Assembly (NCBI RefSeq): GCF_023715325.1
Contig: NZ_JAMBNX010000001.1
Span: forward strand, 248,001 to 312,000
Length of the DNA: 64,000 bases
Direction of reading: 5' to 3'
Source of the DNA: Agromyces mediolanus
GTDB lineage: Bacteria > Actinomycetota > Actinomycetes > Actinomycetales > Microbacteriaceae
The position numbers were made by a program, and so were the translations under genes. Under the pieces are notes generated by a model. The model worked only from the letters and a program-made list of their open reading frames with translations. It was not told the origin of the DNA and did not search any database. Each line of letters begins with the position of its first letter. The stretch's first letter is position 1. Shown here one piece after another: positions 1,509 to 53,185 of the stretch.

Positions 1509-2558
1509 ATGGACGTGGTGGGCGGGGGCGTGCTGGTGGCGGTGGCCGCCGCGCTGTGGATCGTCTACCTGCTGCCCAACTGGTTCCGCCGTCGCCAGTA
1601 CGAGGTGAGCGAACGCCACGCCATCCGGCTCCAGCAGACCCTCCGGGTGCTCGCCGAGACGGCGGAGACGCCGGACGCGGTCCGGCTGGAGGCGACGGCC
1701 CGCGAGGTCGTCGCCCAGCAGCGCATCCTCGCCGCCCAGGAGCAGGCCGCCGCGCACCAGGCCGAGGCCGCTCGCCTCGCGGCGGAGGCCGAAGCGCAGA
1801 TGGCGCTGGTCGAGCGCCGCGCGGCTGAGCAGGCCGTCGCCGCCGCCCGCGAGCGCGCCACTCGCCTCGCCTTGACGCAGTCGATGCCCGCGGTCCCGGT
1901 TCCGAGCGCAGCGCCGCTCGTCCCGGCGTCGAGCGGTGCCGCGCGCGCCGCGCGCCGCCGTGGGCGTGCCCTCTGCTCGCTGGCCGTGCTCGTCTCGACC
2001 ATCGTGGTGCTCGCGGGTCTCGCCATGGCGTGGCCGGTCGCCCTGCTGGTGGGTGCGGTCGGTGTCGGCGCCGTGGCGGCCATCGGACTCGTGCGCCTGG
2101 CTCGGCCCGGCGCCGTGGCAGCCTCCTCCTCGGTGGCTCCCGTCGCCGTGGCCCCGCCGGCGCCGGCGTTCGAGCCGATCGAGTTGCCGGTCGCACCGAC
2201 GCGATCGCCGGAGTGGACGCCCCAGCCGTTGCCTCGGCCGCTGCATCTGTCGCGCGGCACGATCGCGGCGACCGCGATGGCATCCGTCGAAGCCGCGGCG
2301 AAACTGCAGCGCGCGGTGACGGACGAGGCGATCGCGGCCAAGGCGGAGCGGCGCGCGCCCAAGGTGCCCGTGCTGCGACCGGCCGCCGTGGCCGACCGTG
2401 CGGCGGCACCCGCCCCCTCCGCGGCATCCGCTCGTCCGGCTGCGCCGGCCCGCGCGGAGTCGGCACCGAACCCCTATGCGGCGATGGGGATCGTGGGGAA
2501 GGCGGAGCCCGGTTTCAACGATCTCGACACCGTGCTGCGGCGACGCCGCGCCGTCTGA
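1509..2558 (+). CDS. Membrane-anchored Ala-rich hypothetical protein
   Basis: 349-residue protein of unknown function. It has an N-terminal membrane segment (about residues 4-23) followed by basic residues (FRRRQYEVSERHA). A long Ala/Glu/Gln-rich region predicted to be helical or coiled-coil covers about residues 45-120. A second hydrophobic stretch with two probable membrane helices lies at about 155-195, and the tail is Ala/Pro-rich and likely disordered. Similar proteins are common in Microbacteriaceae, often under the unhelpful name large exoprotein; that is background knowledge, not something the sequence shows. The gene lies between rimJ and tRNA-Ala and belongs to the host chromosome. 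I do not recognise a function. Confidence 0.7.
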   Translation: MDVVGGGVLVAVAAALWIVYLLPNWFRRRQYEVSERHAIRLQQTLRVLAETAETPDAVRLEATAREVVAQQRILAAQEQAAAHQAEAARLAAEAEAQMALVERRAAEQAVAAARERATRLALTQSMPAVPVPSAAPLVPASSGAARAARRRGRALCSLAVLVSTIVVLAGLAMAWPVALLVGAVGVGAVAAIGLVRLARPGAVAASSSVAPVAVAPPAPAFEPIELPVAPTRSPEWTPQPLPRPLHLSRGTIAATAMASVEAAAKLQRAVTDEAIAAKAERRAPKVPVLRPAAVADRAAAPAPSAASARPAAPARAESAPNPYAAMGIVGKAEPGFNDLDTVLRRRRAV

Positions 2559-4356
2559 TCGGGTCGGTCCGACCTCGTCGGCGGTGGTCACTACCAAGCC
2601 GTCGGAGGTGATAGGCTCGTTCACGGCTCGGGCCCATGGCGCAGTTGGTAGCGCGTCTCGTTCGCAATGAGAAGGTCGGGGGTTCGAATCCCCCTGGGTC
2701 CACCCCACGCACAAGGCTCGAACCCTTGCCAACGGAAACGTTGGTTGAGGTTCGGGTTTTGTTGGTGTCTGCGGCCCAGGTCAGGGCGTTGGCGTTGACC
2801 TGTGGATCGAGGAGCATCTCGAAGGGCCGGTTGTGCTCGACGCGCAGCTCGTTGTCCTCGTCGATGTAGACCTTCGTGAAGAACGCCTGGTTGCACAGCC
2901 GCCGGTTGGTGTCGTCGCAGCGGGCGTAGATGTCAGCGCAGTTGGCGAGCAGGCCGAGCGCGTCGTCGAGGTGGGCGCGAGCGTCGGCGTAGTCACCGAA
3001 GTGGGCGTCGATACGGCGGGTCACCTGGTCGAGTTCGGCGACGATGCGGTCTTGCTCGCGCTTGAGCACGGAGAGCGGGATCGCGTCGGCGTAGTGCGCC
3101 TGCATGAGGCGGTCCTGCTCGCCTTCGAGCCGGTCGCGGTTGGCGGTGAGGCGTTCCAGTTCCTCGGTTTCGGCGGCCATGAGCCGGTCGAACTCGTGGT
3201 GGAGCATCCCCGCGAGCGCGTCCTGCTGAGCCGGCGTGATCTGGACGCGCGTGTAGTAGTCCTCGACGAGCTTCGCGACGTCCTCGATGAGCATCGCCTG
3301 GCGCGTGCAGTCGGTGCGCTTGGAATGCCGACCGGAGCACACGAAGTAGCAGTAGACGTTGCCGTGGCGGTTCTTCGCGTTGGAGACGATGAGCCGGGAC
3401 CCGCACTGGCCGCAGTGGATGGTGCCTTTGAGGTAGTGGCCGTGGACTTGGGTTGCCTCGACGGCGCACTGGTGCGCGGTGAGCACGGACTGGACCTGGT
3501 ACCAGACCTCGGCGGGCACGAGCGCCGGGTGGTTGCCCTTGTAGCGGGTGCCTCGGTAGACGACATCGCCTTTGTAGTACGGGTTGGTCAGGAGCCGGTG
3601 GATGGTGGACACGGCCAGCGGCTTCGCCGGCCGCTTCGGGGTGGGCAGACTGCGCAGCCCGCGCGAGGTGAGTTCGTCATGGAGCTGGCTGACGCTCCAG
3701 TTGCCCGAGGCGTAGGCCTTGAACGCCCACTCGATCATCGGTGCCCGTTCAGGATCGAGCTCGATGGTGCGGACTTCGCGGCCGAGTTCGTCGCGCTTGC
3801 GGACATTCAGATAGCCGATGGGCGCTCGTCCGTTCGTGCCGCCGCCGATGGCCTTTTGGGTCATGCCCTTGGCGACCTCGGTGGCGAGGTTGCGGGAGTA
3901 GAACTCGGCGATGGTGGACATGATGCCGTGCAGGAGCATCCCCGAGGGGGTCTCGTCGATGTTCTCGGACGCGGACACGAGCATGACCCCGCACTGTTGG
4001 AGTGCGAGGTGGATGCTCACGTCGTCGGCGCGGTTCCTGGCGAGCCGGTCGACCTTGTGAACGATGCAGTACGCGACCTTGTTGGTCTTGACGTACTGGA
4101 TCATCCGCATCAGTTCGGGCCGGTCGGACGACTTGGCTGAGGCTCCCGCGTCGACGAACTCCTCGACGATGCCGGCGCCGAGCTGTTCGGCCTTACGCCG
4201 GGTCGCTTCGCGCTGGGCGGGGATCGAGAAGCCCTCGTCGGTCCCGCCCTTCTCTGCCTGCTCGCGGGTCGAGACCCGCAGGTACGACACGGCGGCAGCC
4301 GCAGTGTTGGGCGGGTCGATGAGGCTGGTAGCCGGATCATCGGCAATGGTGGTCAT
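2515..4356 (-). CDS. Large serine recombinase (ICE integrase)
   Basis: Site-specific recombinase of the resolvase/invertase superfamily, predicted to integrate and excise the element. The N-terminal catalytic domain carries YLRVSTREQ with the nucleophile at about Ser29, and the HKVDRLARNR segment. A recombinase DNA-binding domain follows (residues ~185-300). A zinc ribbon with CGQCGS and a later paired Cys region lies at about 315-350, followed by a coiled-coil-like stretch (residues ~380-450) rich in Glu/Arg. The start at ATG 4356 gives a sensible N-terminus. The frame has no stop inside the element: it crosses the attL core and the whole tRNA-Ala gene in antisense and stops at 2515 in host DNA, so the last ~65 residues are not its own. 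In the predicted excised circle the frame would instead continue into the HTH ORF ending at 52393. Confidence 0.92.
   Translation of the reverse strand: MTTIADDPATSLIDPPNTAAAAVSYLRVSTREQAEKGGTDEGFSIPAQREATRRKAEQLGAGIVEEFVDAGASAKSSDRPELMRMIQYVKTNKVAYCIVHKVDRLARNRADDVSIHLALQQCGVMLVSASENIDETPSGMLLHGIMSTIAEFYSRNLATEVAKGMTQKAIGGGTNGRAPIGYLNVRKRDELGREVRTIELDPERAPMIEWAFKAYASGNWSVSQLHDELTSRGLRSLPTPKRPAKPLAVSTIHRLLTNPYYKGDVVYRGTRYKGNHPALVPAEVWYQVQSVLTAHQCAVEATQVHGHYLKGTIHCGQCGSRLIVSNAKNRHGNVYCYFVCSGRHSKRTDCTRQAMLIEDVAKLVEDYYTRVQITPAQQDALAGMLHHEFDRLMAAETEELERLTANRDRLEGEQDRLMQAHYADAIPLSVLKREQDRIVAELDQVTRRIDAHFGDYADARAHLDDALGLLANCADIYARCDDTNRRLCNQAFFTKVYIDEDNELRVEHNRPFEMLLDPQVNANALTWAADTNKTRTSTNVSVGKGSSLVRGVDPGGFEPPTFSLRTRRATNCAMGPSRERAYHLRRLGSDHRRRGRTDPIRRRGVAAARCRDR
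2630..2702 (+). tRNA. tRNA-Ala (anticodon CGC)
   Basis: Complete cloverleaf: acceptor GGGCCCA pairs with TGGGTCC (one G-T pair), D arm GCGC/GCGC, anticodon stem TCTCG/TGAGA with loop TTCGCAA (anticodon CGC, decoding GCG), and T arm GGGGG-TTCGAAT-CCCCC. The discriminator is A at 2702 and CCA is not encoded. Its 3' end is the integration site of the mobile element, and the tRNA remains whole after integration. Confidence 0.97.
2697..2704 (+). other. Left attachment core (attL) at tRNA-Ala 3' end
   Basis: GGTCCACC covers the last bases of tRNA-Ala and recurs at 52869-52876, where chromosomal synteny resumes. A short shared core is what a serine integrase leaves. The recombinase gene reads across this core in frame. 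The assignment is inference from the repeat, the adjacent recombinase and the gene content. Confidence 0.7.
2713..2760 (+). terminator. Element-borne hairpin terminator behind tRNA-Ala
   Basis: A long inverted repeat closed by a GAAA loop (arms beginning AAGGCTCGAACCC and ending GGTTCGGG, several G-T pairs), followed by TTTT. It follows tRNA-Ala and closely resembles the chromosomal hairpin at 52886-52935: same AAGGCTCGAACCC start and same GGAAAC loop. It would terminate the tRNA transcript in the integrated state, and it also lies inside the recombinase coding frame. Confidence 0.65.
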
Positions 4357-4537: not shown

Positions 4538-4765
4538 CTACCGGGCGGCTTCGGAGGCGGCCAGGCCATCCGTCGCCGCCCGGTAGGTGTCGGGCACCCG
4601 CACGGCCTCGCGGGCCGCGCGGCTCTCGCCGGTCTCCTGCAACGTCAGCCGGATGAGAACCTCGGCGAGCTTGTGCAGGTCGGCGCGTTCGCGGTGGACG
4701 GCCCGGACGGAGAACGACCGCTCCTCGTAGGGGCGACGGTCGGTCTTCTTGGCATAGCGGCTCAT
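4538..4765 (-). CDS. Small basic ICE protein, function unknown
   Basis: 75-residue protein starting MSRYAKKTDRRPYEERSF, with a basic N-terminus and a helical middle containing LHKLAEVLIRLTLQETGE. I recall very similar small proteins beside conjugation genes of other actinobacterial elements, but no role is known to me. Start ATG 4765 lies 4 bp downstream of the preceding gene's stop (4770), consistent with one operon. The longer open frame reaching 5173 runs through the neighbouring gene in another frame, so the shorter start is preferred. Confidence 0.7.
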   Translation of the reverse strand: MSRYAKKTDRRPYEERSFSVRAVHRERADLHKLAEVLIRLTLQETGESRAAREAVRVPDTYRAATDGLAASEAAR

Positions 4766-5867: not shown

Positions 5868-7646
5868 TCAGGACGCGGGGCGGTGGCGCAGCAATGCTTC
5901 GAGTTCGTTGCGGTCGCTGCGGAGCTGCGCGGCGTCGGGCCGGGTCGGCCAGGCGCGCAGATCGGTGACGATGGGCGGTGCGGAGCGCAGCATCGTGATG
6001 CCGGTGCCGAACGGCAGGGTGCGGATGCGGTCTGGCGGCAGAATCGGCACACGGCGGACCGAACGCTGGTTGGAGCGGGTGCCGTGGTCGCCAAGGGTCA
6101 CGCTGTCGGTGTACTCGTCACGCTCACCGATGAGGGTGGAGAGGTCTTGGAGATCGCGGCTGTTGGATGCGCCGCCGAGGATGATCTTGACGATGCTGGC
6201 GTCCCAGATCGCGCCGGCCTGGTGTTCACTCCACCTGTCGCGTGCTTGGGCGAGGGACTGCAAGACCGGCATGGTCGTGATTCCGGTGCCGCCGCCTTCG
6301 GCCATGAGCGTCGGCAGGGATGGCAGCGGTGCGAGGTTCCCGATCTCATCGAGCGCGAGCAATAGCGGCGGGTCGAGCCGTGCTCCGGGTGAGCGGGCGG
6401 CAAGCCTGCGGGCGGTTTCGATGAGGTCTTCGACGAATGCCGCGACCAGCGATGCGGAGGCTCCTGCTCCCGCCCCGGTGGCGAGTAGGTAGAGGGTGCC
6501 TTGTTCGGTGAGGAAGGTCTCGGGGTCGAAGTGCTCGTGCGGGCCGGGCGTGACGGCATCGAGCACGCGCGGGTCGGCGAGGGCGGCGAGTGCGAGGGAG
6601 ACGCCTTGCCAGATGCTGTCGCGGGTCTTGGGGTCGGCGTCGATCATCGCACCAAGGGAGTCGTCCCAACCCATCGCCGCGTTCGGGTGGGAGTTGAGGA
6701 TGGCGACGGCCTCGGTCGCTGCGCTGGGGTCGAGGGTCCACCTGAACAGCTCGGCCGGTGGGCGGCCGTCGAGTTCGGCGGCGTGCAGCAGGCTCTGGAG
6801 TGCGGTGCGGGTCTTTCCCTCCCAGAACCCACCCGACTCGACGCCTCCGGCGCTGAGGCCGGTGGCGGCGGCGAGTCCGTTGGCGCGGATCATCGCGGTG
6901 AGCGGATCGTCGCAGCCGCGAATGGGTGACCAGCGGAGTCCGGCGGGGATGCCTTCGGCGAGGTGTTGGGGGTCGAACACGGCGACCGGCCCGCCTTTGC
7001 GGCGTCGAGCGCGAAGGGTCGCGGTGAGGTTGTCGGGCCTCGTGCTGGTGGTGACGACCGCACCGGGGGCGTCAAGGATCGCGTTGATGACGACGTGCAA
7101 TCCCTTGCCGGAGCGGGGCGGGCCGATCAGCAGGATCGAGTCCTCGACCGATGCCCAGACTTTCGTGCCACGACTGGCCCCCAGGAGGTAGCCGACATCC
7201 TGCGGTGCCGGCGACTCCAAGGAGGGCCGCAGCGTGGCCGCACGGTGAAGCAGTGCCTTCGCGGATGCTGCGGTCTTGACTTCATGGCTGGTCGCGATCC
7301 CCGCGAGTCGGTGCGGGTCGGTCTCGGTCTTCCGCGTGTGTCGACGCAGCACGATCCAGACCCAGACGATCCCGGCTGCGAGTCCGCCGAGCAGTGTCGT
7401 GCTGACGAGCCAGTAGACGAGCGGGTTGAGTCCGTCGGCACCGAGCGCGGTCGCGGGGTCGCCGGGGTTGAACAGCACGGCGAGCCCCGCCGCTGCGCCG
7501 GCGTCGGGCTGGGGCGTGCTGGTGAGGAGCGCGGCGACGCTGCCGGCCGCGCGGAGGACGAGAGCGATCCCGAACATGCCGATCAGGCCGATGAGGGCGG
7601 CGTTGGTGAGTTCGTCGCCCATGCTCCCGGCTTGCCGCTGGTTCAT
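5868..7646 (-). CDS. Type IV coupling protein (TraG/VirD4 family)
   Basis: 592-residue membrane ATPase that links the relaxase-DNA complex to the secretion channel at the inner membrane. Two hydrophobic N-terminal segments (about residues 15-45 and 75-100) anchor it. Walker A GPPRSGKG lies near residue 175 and Walker B LLLALDEIGNLAPLP near 432, and the TraM-recognition-type region follows. The start ATG 7646 overlaps the stop of the gene upstream by 4 bp (ATGA), indicating translational coupling. Its length and order of motifs fit the family. Together with VirB4 and the relaxase it shows that the element is self-transmissible or was until recently. Confidence 0.93.
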   Translation of the reverse strand: MNQRQAGSMGDELTNAALIGLIGMFGIALVLRAAGSVAALLTSTPQPDAGAAAGLAVLFNPGDPATALGADGLNPLVYWLVSTTLLGGLAAGIVWVWIVLRRHTRKTETDPHRLAGIATSHEVKTAASAKALLHRAATLRPSLESPAPQDVGYLLGASRGTKVWASVEDSILLIGPPRSGKGLHVVINAILDAPGAVVTTSTRPDNLTATLRARRRKGGPVAVFDPQHLAEGIPAGLRWSPIRGCDDPLTAMIRANGLAAATGLSAGGVESGGFWEGKTRTALQSLLHAAELDGRPPAELFRWTLDPSAATEAVAILNSHPNAAMGWDDSLGAMIDADPKTRDSIWQGVSLALAALADPRVLDAVTPGPHEHFDPETFLTEQGTLYLLATGAGAGASASLVAAFVEDLIETARRLAARSPGARLDPPLLLALDEIGNLAPLPSLPTLMAEGGGTGITTMPVLQSLAQARDRWSEHQAGAIWDASIVKIILGGASNSRDLQDLSTLIGERDEYTDSVTLGDHGTRSNQRSVRRVPILPPDRIRTLPFGTGITMLRSAPPIVTDLRAWPTRPDAAQLRSDRNELEALLRHRPAS

Positions 7647-26046: not shown

Positions 26047-26307
26047 GTGGCTGAGCCGTGGCTGTCCGCAGACGACATCGCCGCCCACCTCGGGGTCACC
26101 AAAGACACCGTCTACACCTGGATCGCCGAGAAGGCCATGCCCGCCCACAAGGTCGGACGCCTCTGGAAGTTCCAAGCCAGCGAGATAGACGACTGGGTGC
26201 GCGCGGGTGCGGCGGCCAGTGACCAAGAGCTCCACGTAGCCCATCCCGGTGTCGGTGGACGCTCCTACGCTCATGACAACGACGAGCACGGGGAGGGGGG
26301 AAGATGA
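26047..26307 (+). CDS. Small MerR/excisionase-type HTH protein
   Basis: 86-residue DNA-binding protein: WLSADDIAAHLGVTKDTVYTWIAEKAMPAHKVGRLWKFQASEIDDWV is the helix-turn-helix of the excisionase/MerR-like family. The GTG start at 26047 has GGGAGG upstream. Its stop overlaps the methylase start by 4 bp, so it is the first gene of the restriction-modification operon and may autoregulate it, as control proteins do. It could instead serve as excision factor of the ICE, but the coupling favours the first role. Confidence 0.8.
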   Translation: MAEPWLSADDIAAHLGVTKDTVYTWIAEKAMPAHKVGRLWKFQASEIDDWVRAGAAASDQELHVAHPGVGGRSYAHDNDEHGEGGR

Positions 26308-26948
26308 ACCTGAAAGACGCCCAGCGCTTGGTGAAGTCCAAGCAACGCGTTGCGGACCACGGCGAGGTGTTCACGCCGGCGTGGATGGTCGAGGACATGC
26401 TCGACCTCGTTAAGCACGAGTCTGAGCGGATCGACTCCCGCGTACTCGAACCCGCCTGCGGCTCGGGCAACTTCCTCATCCCCGTCCTGGCTCGCAAGCT
26501 CGCCACGGTCGAGCTTCGGCACGGCAAGAGCGAGTTCGAGAAGCGCCACTACGCATTGTTCGCGCTCATGTGCACCTACGGTATCGAACTTCTCGCAGAC
26601 AACGCCGAAGAGTGCCGCCACAATCTCGCCGAGGTGTTCAACACATTCTTGGGTATCGGCAACGATGACCAGTGGGCGCGAGCGGCCCGCGCGGTTCTCG
26701 CCGTGAACATCGTCCAGGGCGATGCCTTGACCATGACCGTGCCAAGCGGCCAGCCGATCACCTTTCCTGAGTGGGGCTACCTCGGCAAAGGCAAGTTCCA
26801 GAGGCGCGACTTTCGCTACGACGACCTCACTCAGCGCGCCTCGTACGAGGGAACCCTATTCGGCGAGCTCGATGACGAGGACCTGTTCGTCCCCGCGCAG
26901 ACTTACCCGACGATGACCGTCAGTCAGATCGCCGAGGCCGCCGCGTGA
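26304..26948 (+). CDS. N6-adenine methylase subunit with motif I
   Basis: 214-residue protein of the N-6 DNA methylase class. VFTPAWMVEDMLDLV is the motif-X-like start and VLEPACGSGNFLIPVLARK is an intact SAM-binding motif I. It then has helices and ends without any NPPY catalytic motif. This looks like one half of a split methyltransferase whose catalytic half is the next gene. ATG 26304 overlaps the HTH gene stop, and the stop overlaps the next start (26945) by 4 bp. Methylation of host DNA would protect it from the helicase-nuclease encoded at 28614. Confidence 0.82.
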   Translation: MNLKDAQRLVKSKQRVADHGEVFTPAWMVEDMLDLVKHESERIDSRVLEPACGSGNFLIPVLARKLATVELRHGKSEFEKRHYALFALMCTYGIELLADNAEECRHNLAEVFNTFLGIGNDDQWARAARAVLAVNIVQGDALTMTVPSGQPITFPEWGYLGKGKFQRRDFRYDDLTQRASYEGTLFGELDDEDLFVPAQTYPTMTVSQIAEAAA

Positions 26949-28621
26949 CCCTTGCACCTTTCACCCTCCGAGGGCACAACCCGGATGTGTTGACGTGCAT
27001 CGCGAACCTCTCCAACGATGAGGTCTTCACCCCGCCGGAGTTCGCGAACCAGATGCTCGACACGCTTGCCGCCGCGTGGGCAGACGCCAACGACGGCGCC
27101 GACATCTGGACCAACCCCGATGTCACGTTCCTCGATCCTTTCACCAAGTCGGGGGTCTTCCTTCGCGAGATCACTCGCCGCCTCACCGACGGACTGATCC
27201 TGACGTTCCCTGACCTCGCCCAGCGCGTCGATCACATCCTCACCCGTCAGGTTTTCGGCATCGGGATCACACAGCTCACTGCACTGCTGGCTCGCCGGAG
27301 TGTCTATTGCTCGAAGTTCGCCAACGGCCCGCACTCGATCGCCAGGTCGTTCACGACCGAGGACGGCAACATCTGGTTCGATCGCACGGACCACGCCTGG
27401 GGCGGTGGCAAACGCGAGTTTCGGGTTGATCCGCTTACGCGCGAAGAGATCGCCGTCTATACCAACCGCAAGTGCACCTACTGCGGTGCTAGCGAAGGCA
27501 GCTACGCACGCGGTGACGACTTGGAAACTCACGCCTACGCATTCATCCATACCGACGACATCAGAGCTCGGATCGCCGAGCTGTTCGGAGACAACATGCA
27601 GTTCGACGTCATCATCGGCAACCCGCCCTATCAGTTGGGGGATGGAGGCGGTGGTGGCGGCGCGTCGGCCACGCCCATCTACAATCTCTTCGTCGAGAAG
27701 GCACTCGCGCTCGACCCTCGCTATGCCGTGATGATCACCCCGTCGCGATGGTTCTCGGGCGGGAAGGGTCTGGACGATTTCCGGGATCGGATGCTCGCCG
27801 ACCACCGCTTTGCGAAACTCATCGACTATCCGCAGCTGTACGACGTCTTTCCTGGCGTGAAGATTCGAGGCGGCGTGTCGTACTGGTTGTGGAGTCGAGA
27901 CCATGAGGGACCGTGCGAGGTCACCACCAAGATCGGAGACGAGGCTATCGGCGAACCCGCACTTCGGATGCTTGACGCCTATGACGTGCTCGTGCGTCGC
28001 AACGAGGGCGTGCGGATTCTGGACAAGGTGAGGGCGCACAGAGTTGACGGAGAGTCGGAGCCTCTCCTCGGCGATGTGGTGTCTGCCAGGAAGCCATTTG
28101 GGCTGACGAACCAAAGGGGCAAGGCGACTCCGGTCGGGTTGAATGATCCAGTCCTGGTGTATGGAAACCAGACTGAGTCGTACATGGAGCGATCTGCGAT
28201 TACGAGCAACGTCGAATGGGTCGACAAGTGGAAGGTCTTATTGGTCAAGGCCCACGGAACGAGTGGCCGCGATGACGTTACGATTCTGGGCGAACCGGTC
28301 GTGGCCGGCCCAGGTACCGCGTGTACCGAGACCTACCTCGTGATCGGGGTTGTGGACTCCGAAACAGAGGCTCGGAATCTGGCCATCTACATGCGGACGC
28401 GCTTCGTTCGATTCCTCGTCTCGCTTCGCAAGATCACCCAGAACATCACTCGCGACTCCTACCTGTTTGTCCCAAGGCTCTCGATGGATCGAGTCTGGAC
28501 TGATCGTGACCTCTATGAGCGCTACGACATCGATAGTGAGCAGGTTTCATTCATAGAGTCGTTGATCGCCGAGCGTCCGAGCAACGACGTGCCTGGTTCC
28601 GATGAGGACGGCGATGAGTAG
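26945..28621 (+). CDS. Eco57I-type methylase subunit with NPPY motif
   Basis: 558-residue DNA methyltransferase-like protein. Near the N-terminus it repeats the VFTPPEFANQML pattern and has FLDPFTKSGVFLREI, a degenerate motif I. The catalytic motif IV VIIGNPPYQL is near residue 225, preceded by a possible zinc pair (RKCTYCGASEG). The C-terminal ~300 residues (VMITPSRWFSGGKGLDDFR onward) resemble Eco57I/TaqI-type target recognition. It probably works as a complex with the preceding subunit. It overlaps the helicase start by 8 bp. Confidence 0.86.
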   Translation: MTLAPFTLRGHNPDVLTCIANLSNDEVFTPPEFANQMLDTLAAAWADANDGADIWTNPDVTFLDPFTKSGVFLREITRRLTDGLILTFPDLAQRVDHILTRQVFGIGITQLTALLARRSVYCSKFANGPHSIARSFTTEDGNIWFDRTDHAWGGGKREFRVDPLTREEIAVYTNRKCTYCGASEGSYARGDDLETHAYAFIHTDDIRARIAELFGDNMQFDVIIGNPPYQLGDGGGGGGASATPIYNLFVEKALALDPRYAVMITPSRWFSGGKGLDDFRDRMLADHRFAKLIDYPQLYDVFPGVKIRGGVSYWLWSRDHEGPCEVTTKIGDEAIGEPALRMLDAYDVLVRRNEGVRILDKVRAHRVDGESEPLLGDVVSARKPFGLTNQRGKATPVGLNDPVLVYGNQTESYMERSAITSNVEWVDKWKVLLVKAHGTSGRDDVTILGEPVVAGPGTACTETYLVIGVVDSETEARNLAIYMRTRFVRFLVSLRKITQNITRDSYLFVPRLSMDRVWTDRDLYERYDIDSEQVSFIESLIAERPSNDVPGSDEDGDE

Positions 28622-31184
28622 AGACATCGATCAGCTTCTCCCGGAGAAGCCCGAGGCACGACTGCGTATCTATGCGTGGTCGCCGAACGATCCACCAGTC
28701 GGCTACGCGGGCCTTCTCAAGGTGGGACAGACGACGAAGGCGGATGTGAACGCGCGCATCCGCGAGTCTCAGGGGCAGATGCAACAGGCATACACGCTGC
28801 ACGTTGATGAGCTCGCCGAACGAGGCGACGGGACGGTGTTTCGCGACTCAGATGTGCGCCAACGGCTGATCGACAAGGGCTTCGAGAACCCGATCTTCGG
28901 CTCAGCGCGAGAGTGGATGCGGTGCACCCCAGACGATGTGCGCACGGCGATCACTGAGCTTCGCACAGGCGTGAAGCTCAGTGGAACCCATCATGAGAAG
29001 TTTCCGATGCGCCCGGAGCAAGCCAGCGCCGTGGACAAGGCCGAGGGCTACTACGAGTCCATCTGGGCCGAGGACTCTCACGCGGTGCCACGGTTCCTGT
29101 GGAACGCCAAGATGCGCTTCGGGAAGACCTTCGCCTCCTACCAACTCGCGAAGCGGCTCGGCGCCAAACGCATCCTCGTGGTCACCTTCAAGCCCGCAGT
29201 GGAGGACGCCTGGCAGACCGACCTGGAGTCTCACGCCGACTTCGACGGCTGGCAGTACCTCTCCTCGGCCACCGGGGGCAACCCAGATGAGGCGGACAAG
29301 ACTCGGCCACTGGTCTACTTCGGTTCGTTCCAGGACCTACTCGGGCGAGATCGGAAGACCGGCCTCATCAAGGCGAAGAACGAGTGGGTCCACACCACCA
29401 ACTGGGACCTCGTCATCTTCGATGAATACCACTTCGGTGCGTGGCGAGAGTCCGCCAAGGAGCTGTTCGAGGGCGAGGACGAGAAAGTCAAGCAGAAGGA
29501 ACTGGCCGCGGAGTACAACGACGGCCTCGTGGCTTTCGACGAGGAGCTTGACGAACTCGGCAACGACGAGGACGACTTCCTGCCGATCACCACCCGCGCC
29601 TACCTGTACCTGTCGGGCACGCCATTCAAGGCGCTGGCAACCGGTGAGTTTATCGAGGAGCAAATCTTCAACTGGACCTACACCGATGAGCAGCGCGCCA
29701 AGGCCGAGTACGCCGTCGCGCAACCGGACGCCTGGAACCCGTACGGGGCACTCCCGGAGATGCGTCTGTTCACGTACCAGATGCCTGACGAGTTGATTGC
29801 CGTTGCGAATCAGGGAGAGTTCGACGAGTTCGACCTCAACGAGTTCTTCGAGGCAAAGGGCGCCGGCAAGGACGCCGAGTTCACCCGCAAGACCGACGTG
29901 CAGAAGTGGCTCGATCTCGTCCGCGGCGCTCACCTGCCCACCCAGGTCGACGCGATGCGAATGGGCACCCGCCCGCCATTCCCGTACTCCGATGTCCGAC
30001 TCCTGCCGTACCTTCAGCACTCGTTCTGGTTCCTGCCCAACGTTGCTGCCTGCGAGGCAATGTCGAACCTGCTCGCGGAGAAGCAGAACGTGTTCTGGCA
30101 CGACTACAAGGTCCTCGTCGTCGCGGGTCCCGGCGCGGGCATCGGGCTGGATGCTCTCCCGCCAGTGCGGGCGGCGATCGGCGACGGCCACGACACGAAG
30201 ACGATCACCCTGTCGTGCGGCAAGCTCACCACGGGCGTCACCGTCAAGCAGTGGTCCTCGATCCTGATGTTGCGCAACCTCAACTCACCCGAGACCTACT
30301 TCCAGGCAGCCTTCCGTGTGCAGTCACCGTGGTCGATCAAGAACCCCGACGGCGACAACCCAAGCGCCGAAGCCGTCCTCAAGCCGGTGTGCTTCGTGTT
30401 CGACTTCGCGCCGACCCGCGCGCTGCGTCAGATCGCCGACTACGGCGCGGGCCTCTCACCGGAGACGCCGAACCCCGAGCAAGCCGTAGAGGAACTCGTG
30501 AAGTTCCTGCCCGTGTTGGCCTACGACGGGTCGAACATGACCCAGGTCGATGCCGGCGGCATCCTCGATATCGCCATGTCGGGCACCTCCGCGACCCTCC
30601 TGGCCCGCAAGTGGGAGTCCGCGATCCTCGTCAACGTCGACAACGAAACCCTGCGCAAGATCATGAACAGCCCCGACGCCCTCAACGCCGTCATGAACAT
30701 CGAGGGTTTCCGTGCACTCGGCAACGACATCTTCGAGACCGTCGTGAACAAGAGTGACGCCGTGAAGAAGGTGAAGAAGGAGAAGGGCGAGGACATCACT
30801 CCGGCGGAGAAGAAGGAGCTGACGGCGGAGGAGAAGGAGTACAAGTCCAAGCGGAAGCAGATTCAGGAGAAGCTGGTCAAGTTCGCCACCCGCATCCCTG
30901 CATTCATGTACCTGACCGACTTCCGTGAGAACACTCTTACCGACGTCATCACCAAGCTCGAACCCGGCCTGTTCCGCACCGTCACCGGACTGACCGTCGA
31001 GGACTTCCACCTCCTCGTGAATCTCGGCGTCTTTAACGCCACCCATATGAACCAGGCCGTCTTCGCCTTCCGCCGCTACGAGGACTCCTCCTTGTCCTAC
31101 ACCGGCATCGAGTCCCACAAGGGCCTGCGTCGCTACGGCCTCTACGACACCGTCGTCGCCGTCAACGACGAGACCGTAGTCTGA
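28614..31184 (+). CDS. Restriction helicase-nuclease (GIY-YIG-like + SF2)
   Basis: 856-residue restriction subunit. The N-terminal ~100 residues (RIYAWSPNDPPVGYAGLLKVGQTTKADVNARI, given in parts) fit the T5orf172/GIY-YIG-like nuclease pattern with YxGxLKVGxT and a following Arg. An SF2 helicase follows: NAKMRFGKTFASY (motif I, residue ~165), LVIFDEYHFGAWR (motif II, ~267), LSGTPF (motif III) and late ETYFQAAFRVQSPW (motif VI). A Lys/Glu-rich segment lies at about 720-755. This architecture cuts unmethylated DNA with ATP. ATG 28614 is chosen over 28602 because it overlaps the upstream stop closely. The operon is HTH-methylase-methylase-helicase. Confidence 0.82.
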   Translation: MSRDIDQLLPEKPEARLRIYAWSPNDPPVGYAGLLKVGQTTKADVNARIRESQGQMQQAYTLHVDELAERGDGTVFRDSDVRQRLIDKGFENPIFGSAREWMRCTPDDVRTAITELRTGVKLSGTHHEKFPMRPEQASAVDKAEGYYESIWAEDSHAVPRFLWNAKMRFGKTFASYQLAKRLGAKRILVVTFKPAVEDAWQTDLESHADFDGWQYLSSATGGNPDEADKTRPLVYFGSFQDLLGRDRKTGLIKAKNEWVHTTNWDLVIFDEYHFGAWRESAKELFEGEDEKVKQKELAAEYNDGLVAFDEELDELGNDEDDFLPITTRAYLYLSGTPFKALATGEFIEEQIFNWTYTDEQRAKAEYAVAQPDAWNPYGALPEMRLFTYQMPDELIAVANQGEFDEFDLNEFFEAKGAGKDAEFTRKTDVQKWLDLVRGAHLPTQVDAMRMGTRPPFPYSDVRLLPYLQHSFWFLPNVAACEAMSNLLAEKQNVFWHDYKVLVVAGPGAGIGLDALPPVRAAIGDGHDTKTITLSCGKLTTGVTVKQWSSILMLRNLNSPETYFQAAFRVQSPWSIKNPDGDNPSAEAVLKPVCFVFDFAPTRALRQIADYGAGLSPETPNPEQAVEELVKFLPVLAYDGSNMTQVDAGGILDIAMSGTSATLLARKWESAILVNVDNETLRKIMNSPDALNAVMNIEGFRALGNDIFETVVNKSDAVKKVKKEKGEDITPAEKKELTAEEKEYKSKRKQIQEKLVKFATRIPAFMYLTDFRENTLTDVITKLEPGLFRTVTGLTVEDFHLLVNLGVFNATHMNQAVFAFRRYEDSSLSYTGIESHKGLRRYGLYDTVVAVNDETVV

Positions 31185-40300: not shown

Positions 40301-43300
40301 GTGGTGACGGTCTCGATGCGCGTGATGTCGGCCGGGGACGGCTACATGTACCTGCTGCGCACCGTCGCGGCCGCAGACGGCGACCGCGCTCTTTCAACAC
40401 CACTGACCAGGTACTACGTGGAGGCGGGGACACCGCCGGGCCAGTGGCTCGGCTCTGGCGTCGCCGCGCTCGGCAAGGGGCAGCTCGCGGTCGGGGATCG
40501 GGTGTCGGAGGCCCAGCTCCAGCTCTTGGTCGGGATGGGGCGTGACCCGATCACCGGCGACCCGCTCGGGCATGCGTTCCCGGCCTACAAGTCGGTGCCG
40601 GAGCGGATCGAGGCTCGGATCGCCGACCTCGACCCGAGCCTGAGTCCGGGTGCCAAGGGCGAGGCGGTCGCGCGGATCGAGGTCGAGGAGACCGAACGTG
40701 GGAAGCGGCGGGCGGTGGCGGGGTTCGACTTCACCTTCTCGGTTCCGAAGTCGGCCTCGGCGTTGTGGGCGGTCGCGGATGCCGGGACGCAGGCGTTGAT
40801 TGGTGAGGCGCATCATGCGGCGGTTGCGGAGGTGGTTGCGTTCATGGAGCGGGAGGTTGCAGCCACCCGGTCGGGTGCAACTGCCGGTGACGGTGCGGTT
40901 GCGCAGGTCGATGTGACCGGGTTGGTGGCGACGGCGTTCGATCACTTCGATTCCCGCGCCGGCGACCCCCATCTGCACACGCACGTCGTCATCTCCAACA
41001 AGGTGCAGACCGCGTTCGACGGCAAGTGGCGGAGCTTGGATGGCCGTCCGATGCACGCCGCCGTGGTGGCGCTCTCGGAGCTGCACGAGGCGGTGTTCGC
41101 TGATCACATGACCCGCACTTTCGGCGTTGAGTGGGAGGCCCGCGATATGGGCCGGGACCGGAACCCGGCTTGGGCGATTAGCAGCGTGCCGGAGGAGTTG
41201 GTCCGGGAGTTCTCCACCCGTGCCAGGTACATCGACGCCGAGAAGGACCGGCTGATCGCCGAGTACGTCGCCCGGCATGGCCGCCAACCCTCCACGGCCA
41301 CGATCATCAAGCTCCGCGCCCAAGCCACCCTCGCCACACGCCCGGAGAAGGAGGTGCGGTCGATGGCTGACCTGACTGCCGAGTGGCGCACCCGCGCCAC
41401 CGGGGTACTCGGCCACGACGCCACCACCTGGGCACGTGGGGTGATGGACAACGACAAGCCGCTGCTGCTGCGAGCCGATGACGTGCCCTTGGACGCGATT
41501 GGCGAACTCGGCCAGACCGTGGTCGAGATGGTGGGCGAGAAGCGCTCCACTTGGCGCAGGTGGAACCTGATGGCCGAGGCGTCCCGGCAGACGATGGGCT
41601 GGCGCTTCGCCACCATGCACGACCGCGAAGCGGTCGTGGGGATGATCGCCGACGCCGCCGAGCAAGCCTCGCTGCGGTTGACGCCGCCCGACCTCGCCAC
41701 CAGCCCGGTCGCGTTCCGGCGGGCGGACGGCACCAGCGTGTTCCTGCCCAAGCACTCCACCGTGTTCTCCTCCGAGCTGCTGCTCGCGGCCGAGGACCGG
41801 CTACTCGACCGCTCTCGCACCCTGACCGCTCCCACCGTGCCGCTGGCGACGGTCGAGAACGTCATCACTAAGCCTGATCGTGAAGGGCGGATGCTCGGTG
41901 AGGATCAGGCCGACGCACTCATGAAGATCGCGGTCTCTGGCCGGATGCTCGATGTGCTGGTGGGCCCGGCGGGCGCCGGGAAGACCACTGCCATGAACGC
42001 GCTGCGCAGGGCGTGGGAGAAGGAACACGGCGCCGGGTCCGTGGTCGGGCTGGCACCGTCCGCCGTGGCGGCGCAGGTCCTCGCTGACGACCTGGGGATT
42101 GCGACGGAGAACACAGCGAAGTGGTGGCAGAACCACCTCGTCCACGGAACTGACTTCCAGGCGGGTCAGCTCGTCATTATCGATGAAGCCTCCCTCGCTG
42201 GAATCCTCTCGTTGGATCGCATCACCCAGCTCGCCGAACGAGCCGGCGCGAAGGTGTTGCTGGTCGGCGACTACGCCCAGCTCCAGTCGGTGGATGCTGG
42301 CGGCGCGTTCGGGCTCCTCGTCGGTGACCGGGATGATGTACCCGAGCTGGTCGACGTGCACCGGTTCATCCACGAGTGGGAGAAGTCCGCGTCCCTCGCC
42401 CTGCGGCACGGCCGTACGCAGGTGATCGACACCTACCTCGACCATGACCGCATCCGCGACGGCGACGGCGACGCGATGACCGATGCCGCCTACACCGCGT
42501 GGCGCGCGGACCGGAACCAAGGTTTGGTGTCGGTGCTGGTCGCCGAGACCCGCGAGGACGTGACCGGCCTCAACACCCGCGCCCGCGCCGATCTGATTCT
42601 CGACGGCGCGTTGAAGCCTGGTCGGGAGGTCGAGCTGAACGACGGGACCACGGCGGGGGCTGGGGACACGATCATCACCCGCCGTAACGACCGCCGACTG
42701 CGCAACGGCAAGGACTGGGTGCGCAACGGTGACACGTGGACCATCACCGGCGTCCGTGACGACGGCTCGGTCACGATCCGCAAGGCCGGCCGCAGGTTCG
42801 GCGGCTCCATCGTCCTGCCCGCCGCCTATGTGGCCGATCACGTCGATCTGGGTTATGCGGTCACGGCGCACAGGGCGCAAGGCGTCACTGTCGACACCGC
42901 GCATGTGCTGGTGGAGCCGACCACGACGAGGGAGAACTTCTACGTCGCGATGACCCGCGGCAAGCAGGCCAACAACGCCTACGTGATCCTCGACCGGGCC
43001 GACGAGCACGCCGAGCCACATCCGGGCGACAACCCCGACGCCACTGGCCGATCCGTCCTGTTCGGGGTGCTTCAACACACCGGTGCTGAGCTGTCCGCGC
43101 ACGAGACCATCACCGCAGAACAGGAGCACTGGGGCTCGATCGCCCAGCTCGCCGCCGAGTACGAGACGATTGCTGCCGCAGCCCAACGAGACCGCTGGGC
43201 CACCCTCATCCGTGCCTCTGGTCTGACTGCCGAGCAAGCCGACACCGCGATCGAGTCCGAGGCGTTCGGGGCACTCACCTCCGAGCTCCGCCGAGCCGAG

Positions 43301-43855
43301 GCCAACCACCACAACCTCGACACCTTGTTCCCTCGGCTGGTCGCGGCGCGCGGGTTTGCCGATGCCGACGACATCGCCTCCGTCCTGCACTACCGAGTGG
43401 CTCGTGCCACTGCCCGCCCGGCTGGCTCGGGTCGCACCCGTAAGGCACCACGAATGATCGCAGGGCTGATCCCATCCGCGGACGGCCCGATGACCGACGA
43501 TATGCGCCAGGCGCTTGATGAGCGGCGCGAGCTGATCGAAGCCCGTGCCGACGCGGTGCTCGACACCGCACGCCAGGCTGGCGAGCCCTGGACGGAACCG
43601 CTCGGTGAGCCACCCCGTGATCCGCGCAAGGAAGCGGCGTGGCGACGGCACGCCCAAACCGTCGCGGCCTACCGCGACCGGTACGGCATCACCGATGACT
43701 CGCCCCTCGGCCCGGAACCGGAGAACGCGGCGCAGAAGATCGACGCGGCTCGCGCAAGAAGCGCACTCGCACGGGTAAATGAAGCCGCCCGCCGATCCGC
43801 GGCCGTCACCGAGCGTCGCTCGATCGAGCGAATTTCTCCCGGGCGGAGCCTGTGA
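40301..43855 (+). CDS. MobF-type relaxase-helicase (TraA/TrwC-like)
   Basis: 1184-residue conjugative relaxase. The N-terminal relaxase domain has a Tyr pair in LTRYYVEAG (about residue 37) for nicking and the His metal site in DSRAGDPHLHTHVVI (~222-230). A RecD-like helicase follows, with VLVGPAGAGKTTAMNA (~555), LVIIDEASLAG (~625) and late GYAVTAHRAQGVTVD with YVAMTRGK. It nicks oriT, leads the strand into the recipient and unwinds it. GTG 40301 or 40304 follows GAAAGG. It stands apart from the secretion operon and is oriented away from the IS-broken methyltransferase. The tail (~1090-1184) is Arg/Ala-rich. Confidence 0.94.
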   Translation: MVTVSMRVMSAGDGYMYLLRTVAAADGDRALSTPLTRYYVEAGTPPGQWLGSGVAALGKGQLAVGDRVSEAQLQLLVGMGRDPITGDPLGHAFPAYKSVPERIEARIADLDPSLSPGAKGEAVARIEVEETERGKRRAVAGFDFTFSVPKSASALWAVADAGTQALIGEAHHAAVAEVVAFMEREVAATRSGATAGDGAVAQVDVTGLVATAFDHFDSRAGDPHLHTHVVISNKVQTAFDGKWRSLDGRPMHAAVVALSELHEAVFADHMTRTFGVEWEARDMGRDRNPAWAISSVPEELVREFSTRARYIDAEKDRLIAEYVARHGRQPSTATIIKLRAQATLATRPEKEVRSMADLTAEWRTRATGVLGHDATTWARGVMDNDKPLLLRADDVPLDAIGELGQTVVEMVGEKRSTWRRWNLMAEASRQTMGWRFATMHDREAVVGMIADAAEQASLRLTPPDLATSPVAFRRADGTSVFLPKHSTVFSSELLLAAEDRLLDRSRTLTAPTVPLATVENVITKPDREGRMLGEDQADALMKIAVSGRMLDVLVGPAGAGKTTAMNALRRAWEKEHGAGSVVGLAPSAVAAQVLADDLGIATENTAKWWQNHLVHGTDFQAGQLVIIDEASLAGILSLDRITQLAERAGAKVLLVGDYAQLQSVDAGGAFGLLVGDRDDVPELVDVHRFIHEWEKSASLALRHGRTQVIDTYLDHDRIRDGDGDAMTDAAYTAWRADRNQGLVSVLVAETREDVTGLNTRARADLILDGALKPGREVELNDGTTAGAGDTIITRRNDRRLRNGKDWVRNGDTWTITGVRDDGSVTIRKAGRRFGGSIVLPAAYVADHVDLGYAVTAHRAQGVTVDTAHVLVEPTTTRENFYVAMTRGKQANNAYVILDRADEHAEPHPGDNPDATGRSVLFGVLQHTGAELSAHETITAEQEHWGSIAQLAAEYETIAAAAQRDRWATLIRASGLTAEQADTAIESEAFGALTSELRRAEANHHNLDTLFPRLVAARGFADADDIASVLHYRVARATARPAGSGRTRKAPRMIAGLIPSADGPMTDDMRQALDERRELIEARADAVLDTARQAGEPWTEPLGEPPRDPRKEAAWRRHAQTVAAYRDRYGITDDSPLGPEPENAAQKIDAARARSALARVNEAARRSAAVTERRSIERISPGRSL

Positions 43856-43899: not shown

Positions 43900-45006
43900 A
43901 TGGGTGTAGTTCCTGCAAGTTCGACCGATCCCGGAGGCGAGACGCCGACCGGACAGGCCGACGCGCCCGGACGGCAGGACCCTCCATCCACGACGATCGA
44001 GTCAAGCACCCCATCCGTCGATCGTTTCCAGATTCTCGCCCTCGATGGCGGGGGAGCCAAGGCACTGTTCACCGCTCACGTGCTGGCGCGGCTGGAACAG
44101 GACCTCGACGTCAGCATCAAGGACTCGTTCGACTTGATCGCTGGCACGTCGGCGGGTGGGATCGTCGCGCTTGGGCTGGGTGCCGGTCTCGCCCCGAGCG
44201 AGATCGTGGGGCACTACGAAGAACTGGTCGAGGCGGTCTTCCCGGCCGTGCGCCGGCGACTGTGGCGGCGGCCTCGCCAACTCACTGCACCCATCTACGA
44301 CGGCGATGCGCTGCGCACTGCCTTGACGAAAGTGCTCGGCCAAAGGCTGCTGGGAGACAGCGCGAAGCGGTTGGTCATCCCGGCGTGGGACGTGCAACGA
44401 GGCTCCGTGCATATCTTCAAGACGCCCCACCACACACGGCTCGCCCGAGACTGGCGCATCCCGATGGTGGACATCGCGATGGCGACCTCGGCGGCGCCGC
44501 TCTACTTCCCTGCCGCGCGTGTCGATGGACACCGCCTCATTGACGGCGGCGTGTGGGCGAACAACCCTTCCGTCGTCGCGATTGCCGAGGCCGTGAGCAT
44601 GCTCGACGTACCGCTCGCCTCGATCAGGGTGCTCAACGTCGGCACCATCGACCAGCTCACGAACCACCCCAAGCGCCTCGACCGCGGCGGGCTGTTCAAC
44701 TGGGCGAAGCCGATCGCGCCACTGATCCTCACAGCCGGCAGCCGTGGCGGACAGGGCATCGCTGAACATCTGATCGGCAAGGCCGCTTTCACCAGGTTCG
44801 ATGCTCTCGTGCCGAGCGGACTGTACGCACTCGACTCGGCAGACCCGAGCGATGTCGCCGGCCTCGCCGCGTCCGTGAGCCGCGAGCTCAGCCCTATCTA
44901 CACCGCGCGGTTCGCAGATCATCGCGCGGCGGACTACACACCGTTGATCGGAGACCGACACCGCGGCGACCCGACCAGCACGTCGACCACGGAGGTCTCC
45001 CGATGA
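43900..45006 (+). CDS. capV: CBASS effector: CapV-like patatin phospholipase
   Basis: 368-residue patatin-like phospholipase. After a ~40-residue flexible N-terminus come the oxyanion motif LALDGGGAKALFTAHV (~47), the nucleophile AGTSAGGIVAL (~84) and the catalytic LIDGGVWANNP (~210). In CBASS the enzyme is switched on by the cyclic nucleotide from the CD-NTase next door and destroys the cell membrane of infected cells. ATG 43900 is 44 bp after the relaxase stop, and a TAGAAT box lies just upstream. The stop overlaps the CD-NTase start by 4 bp. Confidence 0.93.
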   Translation: MGVVPASSTDPGGETPTGQADAPGRQDPPSTTIESSTPSVDRFQILALDGGGAKALFTAHVLARLEQDLDVSIKDSFDLIAGTSAGGIVALGLGAGLAPSEIVGHYEELVEAVFPAVRRRLWRRPRQLTAPIYDGDALRTALTKVLGQRLLGDSAKRLVIPAWDVQRGSVHIFKTPHHTRLARDWRIPMVDIAMATSAAPLYFPAARVDGHRLIDGGVWANNPSVVAIAEAVSMLDVPLASIRVLNVGTIDQLTNHPKRLDRGGLFNWAKPIAPLILTAGSRGGQGIAEHLIGKAAFTRFDALVPSGLYALDSADPSDVAGLAASVSRELSPIYTARFADHRAADYTPLIGDRHRGDPTSTSTTEVSR

Positions 45007-45998
45007 AGCTCACTGACTACTTCAACGTCTTGCTCAAGGACACCGTCAACCTCGGCCAGGTGAAGCTCGACTCGCTCGACTCTCGCGTCGAGGCGGTCTA
45101 CAAGGCGTTGAAGGCCGACGAGCAGATCGGGCACCTGATCCTCGGCAAGACGCCCCAGGGCTCGTGGGCGCACAAGACCATCATCAATCCGGTGGGCAGC
45201 AACGAGTTCGACGCGGACTTCATGCTCGACATGAGCGAGAACGCGGACTGGGCCGACGATCCCAAGAAGTACATCGAGGAGGTCTACGCGGCTCTGCACC
45301 GGCACAGCACCTACGGAAACATGCCGCACTCACGCAAGTGCCGTTGCGTCCGAGTTGTCTACGCGAACTCCATGCACCTGGACATCGTTCCGCACCTCAA
45401 CCTCGCCGATGGACGCGAAGTCATCGTCAATCGCGACGACAACGACTGGGAGCAGACCGACCCCCAGGGGTTCACGGACTGGATGAGGGACAAGGACGCG
45501 CTCGCGAAGGGCAACCTCCGCAAGGTCATCCGGCTGATGAAGTACCTGCGTGACCACAAGAACTCCTTCACCGGGACCCGGTCGATCCTCCTGACGACAC
45601 TGCTCGGTGAGCAGGTCACCGAGTTGCGCACGCTGCTTGACCCCGGCTACTACAGCGACGTCCCCACGACTCTCCTGCACCTCGTAAAGGACCTCGACGC
45701 CTGGCTCCAGGCGCGCCCGATCAAGCCCTCCATTCCGGACCCGTCCGGGTCCGGGGTCACCTTCGACCATCGGTGGGAGCAGTCGACCTACAGCTACTTC
45801 CGGGACCGTATTCATGTTCACGCCGCCGAGATCGAGGAGGCTTACGAGGAGGAGAACAAGGAGCGCAGCATCGAGCTGTGGCAGGGCATCTTCGGTGACG
45901 GCTTCAAGGCCCCGGCCACCTCGTCCAGCAGCGCGAAGTTCCCGGCAGCAGCTCCCGCGGCCGCTTCCACCGTGGGGCGGTCTGGCCGCGCGGGATGA
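45003..45998 (+). CDS. CBASS CD-NTase (cGAS/DncV-like)
   Basis: 331-residue nucleotidyltransferase that makes a cyclic di- or trinucleotide on phage infection. The nucleotidyltransferase motif is GSWAHKTIINPVGSNEFDADFMLD (GS plus the D-x-D pair, ~52-72), with the third acidic residue in MHLDIVPHLN (~125). The C-terminus is a long helix and a disordered Ala/Ser-rich tail ending GRAG; Cap2 enzymes attach this kind of tail to cell targets. It is coupled to capV before (ATGA) and cap2 after (4-bp overlap). The product nucleotide cannot be predicted safely. Confidence 0.9.
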   Translation: MKLTDYFNVLLKDTVNLGQVKLDSLDSRVEAVYKALKADEQIGHLILGKTPQGSWAHKTIINPVGSNEFDADFMLDMSENADWADDPKKYIEEVYAALHRHSTYGNMPHSRKCRCVRVVYANSMHLDIVPHLNLADGREVIVNRDDNDWEQTDPQGFTDWMRDKDALAKGNLRKVIRLMKYLRDHKNSFTGTRSILLTTLLGEQVTELRTLLDPGYYSDVPTTLLHLVKDLDAWLQARPIKPSIPDPSGSGVTFDHRWEQSTYSYFRDRIHVHAAEIEEAYEEENKERSIELWQGIFGDGFKAPATSSSSAKFPAAAPAAASTVGRSGRAG

Positions 45999-52392: not shown

Positions 52393-52728
52393 TCAGACGT
52401 TCGATGCGACGGCTTTTGCGCGCCGACCACCCGGTCGAATCGTGACGCCCTCTGCGGCCAGCGCGCGTCGGACAGCTTGCTGGCTGACCCCGTACCGCAG
52501 CCCGACTTCCATTAGCGTAAGGCCCTCGTCGTACAGCTCGACCGCTTCGGCGAGATGGCACTCATCGAGCCCCCGCTGGCGTATCGGTACCGAGCGGCGG
52601 ACAAGGTGCGCCGCCGCGGTGCGGCGATGAATGCTGAACCGCTCGCCCAACTCCACGAGTGTCGCGCCCGACTCATACGAGGCCACCAGCTCATCCACCT
52701 GCCCCGGGCTCAGAAAGGTTTGAGTCAT
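52393..52728 (-). CDS. Two-HTH protein at the right end of the ICE
   Basis: 111-residue protein from ATG 52728 with two resolvase-like helix-turn-helix units: SYESGATLVELGERFSIHRR (residues ~16-35) and LYDEGLTLMEVGLRYGVSQQ (~69-88, followed by AVRRALAAEG). Such HTHs form the DNA-binding ends of serine recombinases or stand-alone recombination factors. It is the last gene before attR. The frame is open further upstream through attR to 52968, so in the predicted excised circle it would be the in-frame continuation of the recombinase. Whether it works alone, as an extension, or both is not settled by sequence. Confidence 0.75.
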   Translation of the reverse strand: MTQTFLSPGQVDELVASYESGATLVELGERFSIHRRTAAAHLVRRSVPIRQRGLDECHLAEAVELYDEGLTLMEVGLRYGVSQQAVRRALAAEGVTIRPGGRRAKAVASNV

Positions 52729-52868
52729 CCCAACTGCACGCACCATCCGCCCCCGCTCGTCCACCACAGACGGCTCCAGCGGCCTCCGGTTCCGCCGGTA
52801 GACGCCCCGCGACCTGCGAGAAGCCACGGTTTTCAAGGCCGGGCAGGGGTTCTCGAACTCTCTACGGA

Positions 52869-52876
52869 GGTCCACC
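52869..52876 (+). other. Right attachment core (attR)
   Basis: GGTCCACC, the second copy of the attL core. To its right lies a hairpin like the one beside tRNA-Ala, which is the original chromosomal terminator of that tRNA, displaced by ~50 kb. To its left element DNA ends. Only the short core is shared, as serine integrases require. Confidence 0.7.
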
Positions 52877-52885
52877 AAGCATACG

Positions 52886-52935
52886 AAGGCTCGAACCCCG
52901 GTCGATGGAAACATCGGCCGGGGTTCGAGCCTTTT
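52886..52935 (+). terminator. Displaced chromosomal terminator of tRNA-Ala
   Basis: Near-perfect hairpin: AAGGCTCGAACCCCGG arm, GATGGAAACATC loop region, CCGGGGTTCGAGCCTT arm, followed by T residues. It is an intrinsic terminator and matches the element-borne hairpin at 2713-2760 in start and loop. Before integration it stood right behind tRNA-Ala. Confidence 0.8.
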
Positions 52936-53185
52936 CGCTGTTCCGATCCCGGCGAGGGCGGTCGGCACCGTCGTCCGGGATGTCCCTCCCGCGGATCGCC
53001 GCGCCGCGCCGCGCAGGCGCAGGGTCTGCGTCCACCGATCGCGCGTCGGCGCGCGAGCGGGCGAGAGCCCGATGGAATCCCGGACTGCTCGACGCGCGAA
53101 GAGGGTGCGGAGTCCCGGCGCTACAGTAAGGTGATCGTGGTATCCCAGTATGGGAATGCCGGCTCATTCCTCCGAAAGGCGCTGC

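Follow-up and report, generated by a model that had tools for sequence, protein, structure and literature searches.

An attachment site that probably lies inside a large serine recombinase gene of an integrated element in Agromyces mediolanus

In the genome of Agromyces mediolanus (assembly GCF_023715325.1, contig NZ_JAMBNX010000001.1), we analysed a stretch of 64,000 nucleotides (nt), positions 248,001 to 312,000 of the forward strand, that contains an element of about 50.2 kb resembling an integrative and conjugative element (ICE). This whole stretch is called the window and positions are counted from its first letter. The integration target is a tRNA-Ala(CGC) gene (2630..2704, plus strand) identified with ARAGORN, and the element is bounded by two copies of an 8-nt core, GGTCCACC, starting at 2697 (attL, 2697..2704) and at 52869 (attR, 52869..52876). 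Next to attL, the minus strand carries an open reading frame (ORF) of 613 amino acids (2515-4356) with the body of a large serine recombinase (2704..4356). Pfam domains scoring above the cut-off (PF00239, PF07508 and PF13408; resolvase, recombinase and zinc-ribbon) cover residues 22-367, all upstream of the core, which falls at residue 551, and within the element the frame reaches the core without a stop codon. The integrated frame crosses the core, continues antisense through tRNA-Ala(CGC) and stops at 2515. This gives the protein a host-encoded substitute C-terminus (2515..2699, minus strand) that has its equivalents in the antisense-tRNA tails of relatives.

At the far end of the element, a second minus-strand ORF (52393-52968) spans the attR core. 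Both cores read GTG GAC on the minus strand and in the same frame. When the two ends are joined, the frame stays open for 158 codons past the core, includes two helix-turn-helix (HTH) units and stops at 52393. We call this part (52393..52869, minus strand, 158 codons and the stop) the tail, since it is the would-be C-terminus of the recombinase in a circle. From the ATG used here, an excised circle would encode body plus tail, 711 residues in all. A sequence-only reading of the window had given the coordinates of the recombinase frame, both cores and the end of the far-end frame, and had noted the course of the recombinase frame antisense through tRNA-Ala; all of this was correct on re-reading, as was the agreement in phase across the joined cores. 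It had also claimed that the circle would encode a recombinase with about 160 extra residues bearing two HTH units, which fits the 158-residue tail and holds in most relatives examined. The comparisons below indicate that the 3' part of the integrase gene (int) lies beyond the attachment site of the circular form (attP) and is conserved there as protein. Very probably, attP lies inside int, and integration splits the gene and exchanges its C-terminus.

The 8-mer alone proves nothing, as the plus strand of the window has five copies of it and two of its complement. The ends inferred here are supported by empty sites, in which the tRNA and right flank aligned unbroken in two of 60 congeneric genomes (its own included), over positions 1-134 of 138 nt at 97% in one and 1-136 at 93% in the other; most of the remaining genomes align over about the tRNA only. 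Among relatives, attL is conserved on the element side up to GTG(G) and variable on the host side after it (n = 47 sites), and at attR the host side is variable before GTG(G) (n = 30 sites). Because of these boundaries the most likely place of the crossover is 2700-2703, which reads GTGG on the minus strand, and 52872-52875. GTG(G) is common to attL and attR at 89-100%, a resolution coarser than the crossover dinucleotide, and the window's own row in the attL alignment is one base out of register. A TTCGA-type sequence occurs in both att arms and in the T-arm of the tRNA. This may be the reason for the many tRNA targets, which among the relatives are Ala, Val, Lys, Leu, Arg and His. The left end of the element (2705-2770), at once recombinase coding sequence and att arm, contains a terminator-like hairpin resembling the terminator of the host tRNA-Ala, and in line with this likeness the empty-site query aligned at attL with 87% identity over positions 1-125 of 138 nt.

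The recombinase body is widespread in Actinobacteria. From a genome scan with 247 relatives we kept the best 80, about 25 of which are 96-98% identical and come from different genera. Fifty relatives have at least 79% identity, and in 48 of them no stop interrupts the frame across the core, whose GTG codon is in the same phase each time; the two exceptions have a stop in the body (L051) or lie on a contig that ends before the core (L030). Chance had been regarded as not negligible in the sequence-only reading, with phase agreement expected in 1 of 3 cases and few stops in GC-rich DNA, and the comparison with relatives makes it very unlikely. A wider set comprised 111 loci (the 80 relatives, 4 viral contigs and, out of 396 genomes sampled in the order, 27 more; L163 and L164 were dropped as duplicates). 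Twenty-three of these have no antisense tRNA within 400 nt, owing to contig ends, joined tails, stops in the body or other sites, and are uninformative. Among the other 88, the frame reads into the tRNA in 69 and stops at the core in 19. All but one of the latter are at 60-79% identity, mostly with His-tRNA targets where a host base completes a TGA. Relatives ending before the core had been named beforehand as the contrary case; we looked for them, and in none of these 88 serine recombinase loci, each with an antisense tRNA no more than 400 nt away, does the frame stop before the core. The recombinases of this group therefore lack a stop codon of their own ahead of attP. The host-derived tail predicted for the integrated form is present in the window and in the 69 loci that read into the tRNA, and such tails in integrated relatives range from 11 to hundreds of codons.

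The tail starts with a linker (codons 1-50, 52720..52869, minus strand) that is conserved as protein and predicted to be disordered. An AlphaFold2 model places a first three-helix HTH unit at residues 55-91 (52597..52707, minus strand) and a second at residues 103-140 (52450..52563, minus strand), the second with matches to Sigma70_r4 and HTH_23. The model has a mean predicted local distance difference test score (pLDDT) of 68 and a predicted template modelling score (pTM) of 0.39, and a Foldseek search with it gave no match at E <= 0.001. The best similarity, an insignificant one, was to an archaeal CRISPR-repeat-binding protein (3e-3), followed by Tc3, Pax6 and Mos1, hinting at a weak structural similarity to two-part DNA-binding domains.

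Thirty-five tails were aligned after removal of L103 (identical to L051), L006 (identical to the window) and L078 (aligned only from residue 37). Between the core and the HTH part, codons 1-46 of the linker contain no indel or stop in any of the 35 copies (30 distinct proteins), which were gathered by a protein search that disfavours frameshifted copies. In 12 diverse tails, 36-84% identical to that of the window, L1, N7 and a linker D-x-R-G are invariant. The motif L-x-x-x-F-x-N at the core is nearly invariant, and the frame to the core is kept across tails that are only 36-42% identical. We estimated selection on codons 15-41, which are separated from the core by more than 40 bp and precede any conserved start codon, in two classes of 17 and 12 of the 35 tails (outside both are L029, L052, L072, L084, L104 and L115, the last identical to L111; L029 and L104 were also left out of the set of all tails in these statistics). 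The ratio of nonsynonymous to synonymous polymorphism (pN/pS) was 0.39 in the 17 copies (bootstrap 0.22-0.59) and 0.20 in the 12 (0.08-0.41), close to those of the HTH part (0.26 and 0.19). With the linker read in the two shifted forward frames it was about 0.9-1.7, and one antisense frame was also low, at 0.3-0.5 in both classes. The ratios in the coding frame indicate that linker codons 15-41 are under purifying selection. These alignments show the tail to be a coding module conserved from the core onward, not a frame left open by accident.

We searched for the tail in 47 recombinase-bearing genomes, covering 49 of the 80 loci (L017 is absent from this set), and found a homologue in 43. In 38 of these the best match begins at residue 1 or 2, directly behind the core. 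Ahead of this point the sequences are unrelated to each other, and some contain stops, apart from those in which a recombinase adjoins the tail. The order-wide sample has a recombinase relative in 27 of 396 genomes; leaving out the window's own, 24 of 26 had tail matches compared with 2 of 20 genomes without the recombinase (Fisher p 1e-8), or 16 of 26 and 0 of 20 when a match had to start within position 12 and reach position 109, a comparison confounded by kinship, the 20 controls being from the window's genus and family. Placement was counted over all 113 recombinase rows and 114 tail rows, taking non-adjacent tails on the same contig within 120 kb. All 43 such pairs are co-oriented, with the tail upstream in 37 and downstream in 6, several of the 6 being array neighbours or fragments. 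The order-wide sample has the tail upstream and co-oriented in 18 of 19 pairs (the exception is G179). Phase was checked on 48 of the 114 tail rows from the 47-genome search and 52 of 56 from the order-wide sample, the placement counts being redone on all rows; in the latter sample 18 of 20 tails have the core codon in phase.

Body and tail also occur in one frame. Twelve distinct ORFs in existing contigs contain both, several of them cut by contig ends, and in 10 rows (9 recombinases) a tail starts within 400 nt. One of these loci, from Aeromicrobium (L118), has an unbroken body-tail frame of 776 amino acids, and on a Sediminivirga contig (G026:C7) joined recombinases stand in series, the last one in tRNA-Ala. 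The body in several joined ORFs is from another recombinase group, 50-58% identical, and the frame still fits. Apparent tandem arrays of differing recombinases are seen on G026:C7 (L120, L121, L145), G022:C23 (L131) and G289:C1, and each internal junction appears to join one recombinase to the tail of the next element. Two loci considered as permanent recombinase-tail fusions, L124 and L125, were rejected as they have no recombinase domain; L125 encodes a TniQ protein with unrelated HTHs. In collections of mobile elements, the tail had no match among phages and one weak match among plasmids, a Streptomyces HTH gene at 35% identity with no serine recombinase named in its annotated surroundings. 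The recombinase matched 678 phage records, all below 60% identity, and nothing in the plasmid collection at 1e-60. Four viral contigs have recombinase relatives, none joined to a recognised tail.

Several observations weigh against a location of attP inside int. Four of the 47 recombinase-bearing genomes have no tail match, tails have decayed in some elements (G008, G018, L029), and two tails of the order-wide sample are out of phase, one shifted by one with a stop (L204) and one without a recognisable core (L206). No excised circle or attP was seen among the joined contigs or the phage, plasmid and viral-contig matches. The L118 contig, the only one tested for circularity, is not called a circle because its ends do not overlap. 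Where the context is readable, the contiguous joined ORFs appear in at least some cases to be tandem-array junctions. The phage and plasmid collections gave no free form. The way in which the linker copies were gathered also belongs here, as does the possibility that a stand-alone HTH protein is made in the integrated state from starts within the linker.

Under the arrangement that we favour, with int split by its own attP, this site would lie between the catalytic and zinc-ribbon body and the C-terminal tail formed by the disordered linker and two HTH units. The circle would produce a long recombinase consisting of both. When the element integrates at the 3' terminus of a tRNA gene, the coding region of the tail would end up at the opposite end of the element, separated from the recombinase. 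The gene in its integrated state would encode the body followed by a tail from host DNA, read through the tRNA in antisense, and the long form would return on excision. It is plausible, as had been suggested, that activity or excision depends on the integration state. The likeliest role, to which we give slightly less than an even chance, is that the tail provides DNA binding needed by the circle-state enzyme for integration, with its loss helping to make integration one-way. Excision would then fall to the body form, aided by a directionality factor, or to a long form that comes from an incoming element or is rebuilt at a tandem-array junction. More tentative still is a wider picture of a self-editing recombinase: throughout a large group of actinobacterial serine recombinases that target tRNA genes, each integration would remove a conserved two-HTH domain from the enzyme and each excision restore one, the reaction product thereby setting the direction of the enzyme. 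In this picture tandem accretion would yield a long enzyme with the neighbour's tail, and arrays might re-arm excision and mix the tails of different elements. The tail was also considered as the determinant of the target tRNA and rejected, no correlation being evident by eye.

The main rival for the role of the tail is that it serves chiefly as a state sensor, a transcription regulator made only in the circle (for example of transfer or int genes), and not as part of directionality. The two HTH units, which match Sigma70_r4 and further HTH families, would suit such a regulator. So would the finding that 14 of 37 element pairs with bodies at least 95% identical carry tails less than 65% identical, because of which we consider the tails to be exchanged or diversifying, independently of catalysis. 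On the other side, two-part transposase end-binding and paired domains are among the best structural similarities, insignificant as these are, and binding to att sites fits them equally well. We regard a role mainly as a state sensor as rather unlikely, if a serious competitor. As an alternative to the split of int itself, it is unlikely that the HTH units belong to a regulator gene of their own beginning within the linker, with the recombinase frame open into it by accident. Start-like codons (ATG/GTG/TTG) do occur at linker columns 42, 43 and 48 in 31, 33 and 31 of the 35 copies, and the integrated far ends share no upstream frame. However, the selected codons 15-41 lie ahead of those starts in the same frame, the frame and the near-invariant motif are kept up to the core in diverged tails, and the start at column 48 is absent in 4 of 35 copies. 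That the read-through is a trivial by-product of a lost or displaced stop codon, as the high GC content, the often open antisense tRNA frame and the variable host tails might suggest, can hardly be credited, since it predicts some relatives stopping before the core when none of 88 do, the far side is conserved as protein over about 155 codons, and the presence of tails follows that of the recombinase across genomes, subject to the kinship noted above.

Other features of the element lie between the att sites. Just upstream of the recombinase is an ORF of 75 amino acids (4538..4765, minus strand) that is conserved in 59 of the 80 loci. It lies 184-187 nt upstream of the recombinase in close relatives, with more varied spacing in distant ones, and is a candidate directionality or accessory factor. 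Pfam matches identify a TraG/VirD4-type coupling protein (5868..7646, minus strand) and a TrwC-type relaxase/helicase (40301..43855, plus strand). Among the 30 element ORFs scanned there was no Pfam match to a VirB4-like ATPase, and several large ORFs matched nothing. The cargo also includes ArdC, an oxidoreductase, a P-type ATPase and a restriction-modification set with N6-methylase, Eco57I-type methylase and ResIII helicase genes (26304-31184). Patatin, SMODS nucleotidyltransferase and E1/E2 fusion genes (43900-47749) form what we take to be a type II cyclic oligonucleotide-based antiphage signalling system (CBASS) defence set. A partial resolvase-domain match with one internal TGA (48342-48596, plus strand) is probably a remnant.

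Known systems resemble this arrangement in part, the nearest being archaeal integrases and the integration-dependent immunity of phage BPs. Archaeal 'suicidal' integrases of the SSV1, pT26-2 and pTN3 types also have attP in the integrase gene, which is split on integration and complete only in the circle (PMC8371274), and by comparison the element in the window likewise appears to have its attP in the integrase gene, with the parts separated. The archaeal enzymes are tyrosine recombinases from which the split cuts off the catalytic domain, whereas the enzyme in the window is a serine recombinase by its Pfam domains and would keep its catalytic body whole, exchanging only the HTH tail. A 2021 review describes self-disrupting recombinases as exclusive to archaea (PMC8371274). 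In mycobacteriophage BPs and its relatives, attP lies within an ORF and integration alters the C-terminus, giving state-specific activity (PMC4557955). There it is the repressor gene that is cut, with loss of 33 residues carrying an ssrA-like tag (PMC4557955), whereas here attP is in the recombinase frame and a folded two-HTH module would be lost. An ssrA-like degradation tag of the BPs kind was considered for the tails and dropped, their C-termini being varied by eye. In ICEKp1, int expression likewise depends on the integration state through the joined ends, but by a transcriptional switch at the 5' side that, in the account given, apparently leaves the protein unchanged (PMC13023037). Engineered fusions of integrase and recombination directionality factor show that added protein parts change the direction of a serine integrase (PMC5737554). 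Those fusions are artificial, whereas here the module would be added and removed by recombination itself, with a hypothetical effect on direction. According to a 2011 survey of actinobacterial ICEs, insertion of serine recombinases into tRNA genes is rare (PMC3218068); our samples contain many. Searches of open-access papers, a body with few articles from subscription journals and few preprints, gave no description of a serine recombinase whose gene is divided by its own attP.

If true, this arrangement would be a widespread bacterial serine-recombinase counterpart of the archaeal self-splitting integrases and a natural case of a recombinase whose protein sequence records its integration state. 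It would open a direct route to the question of how direction is determined in serine integrases, and may account for many odd annotations of recombinases with antisense-tRNA tails. The gene annotated in integrated genomes would then differ from the one encoding the enzyme that performs integration.

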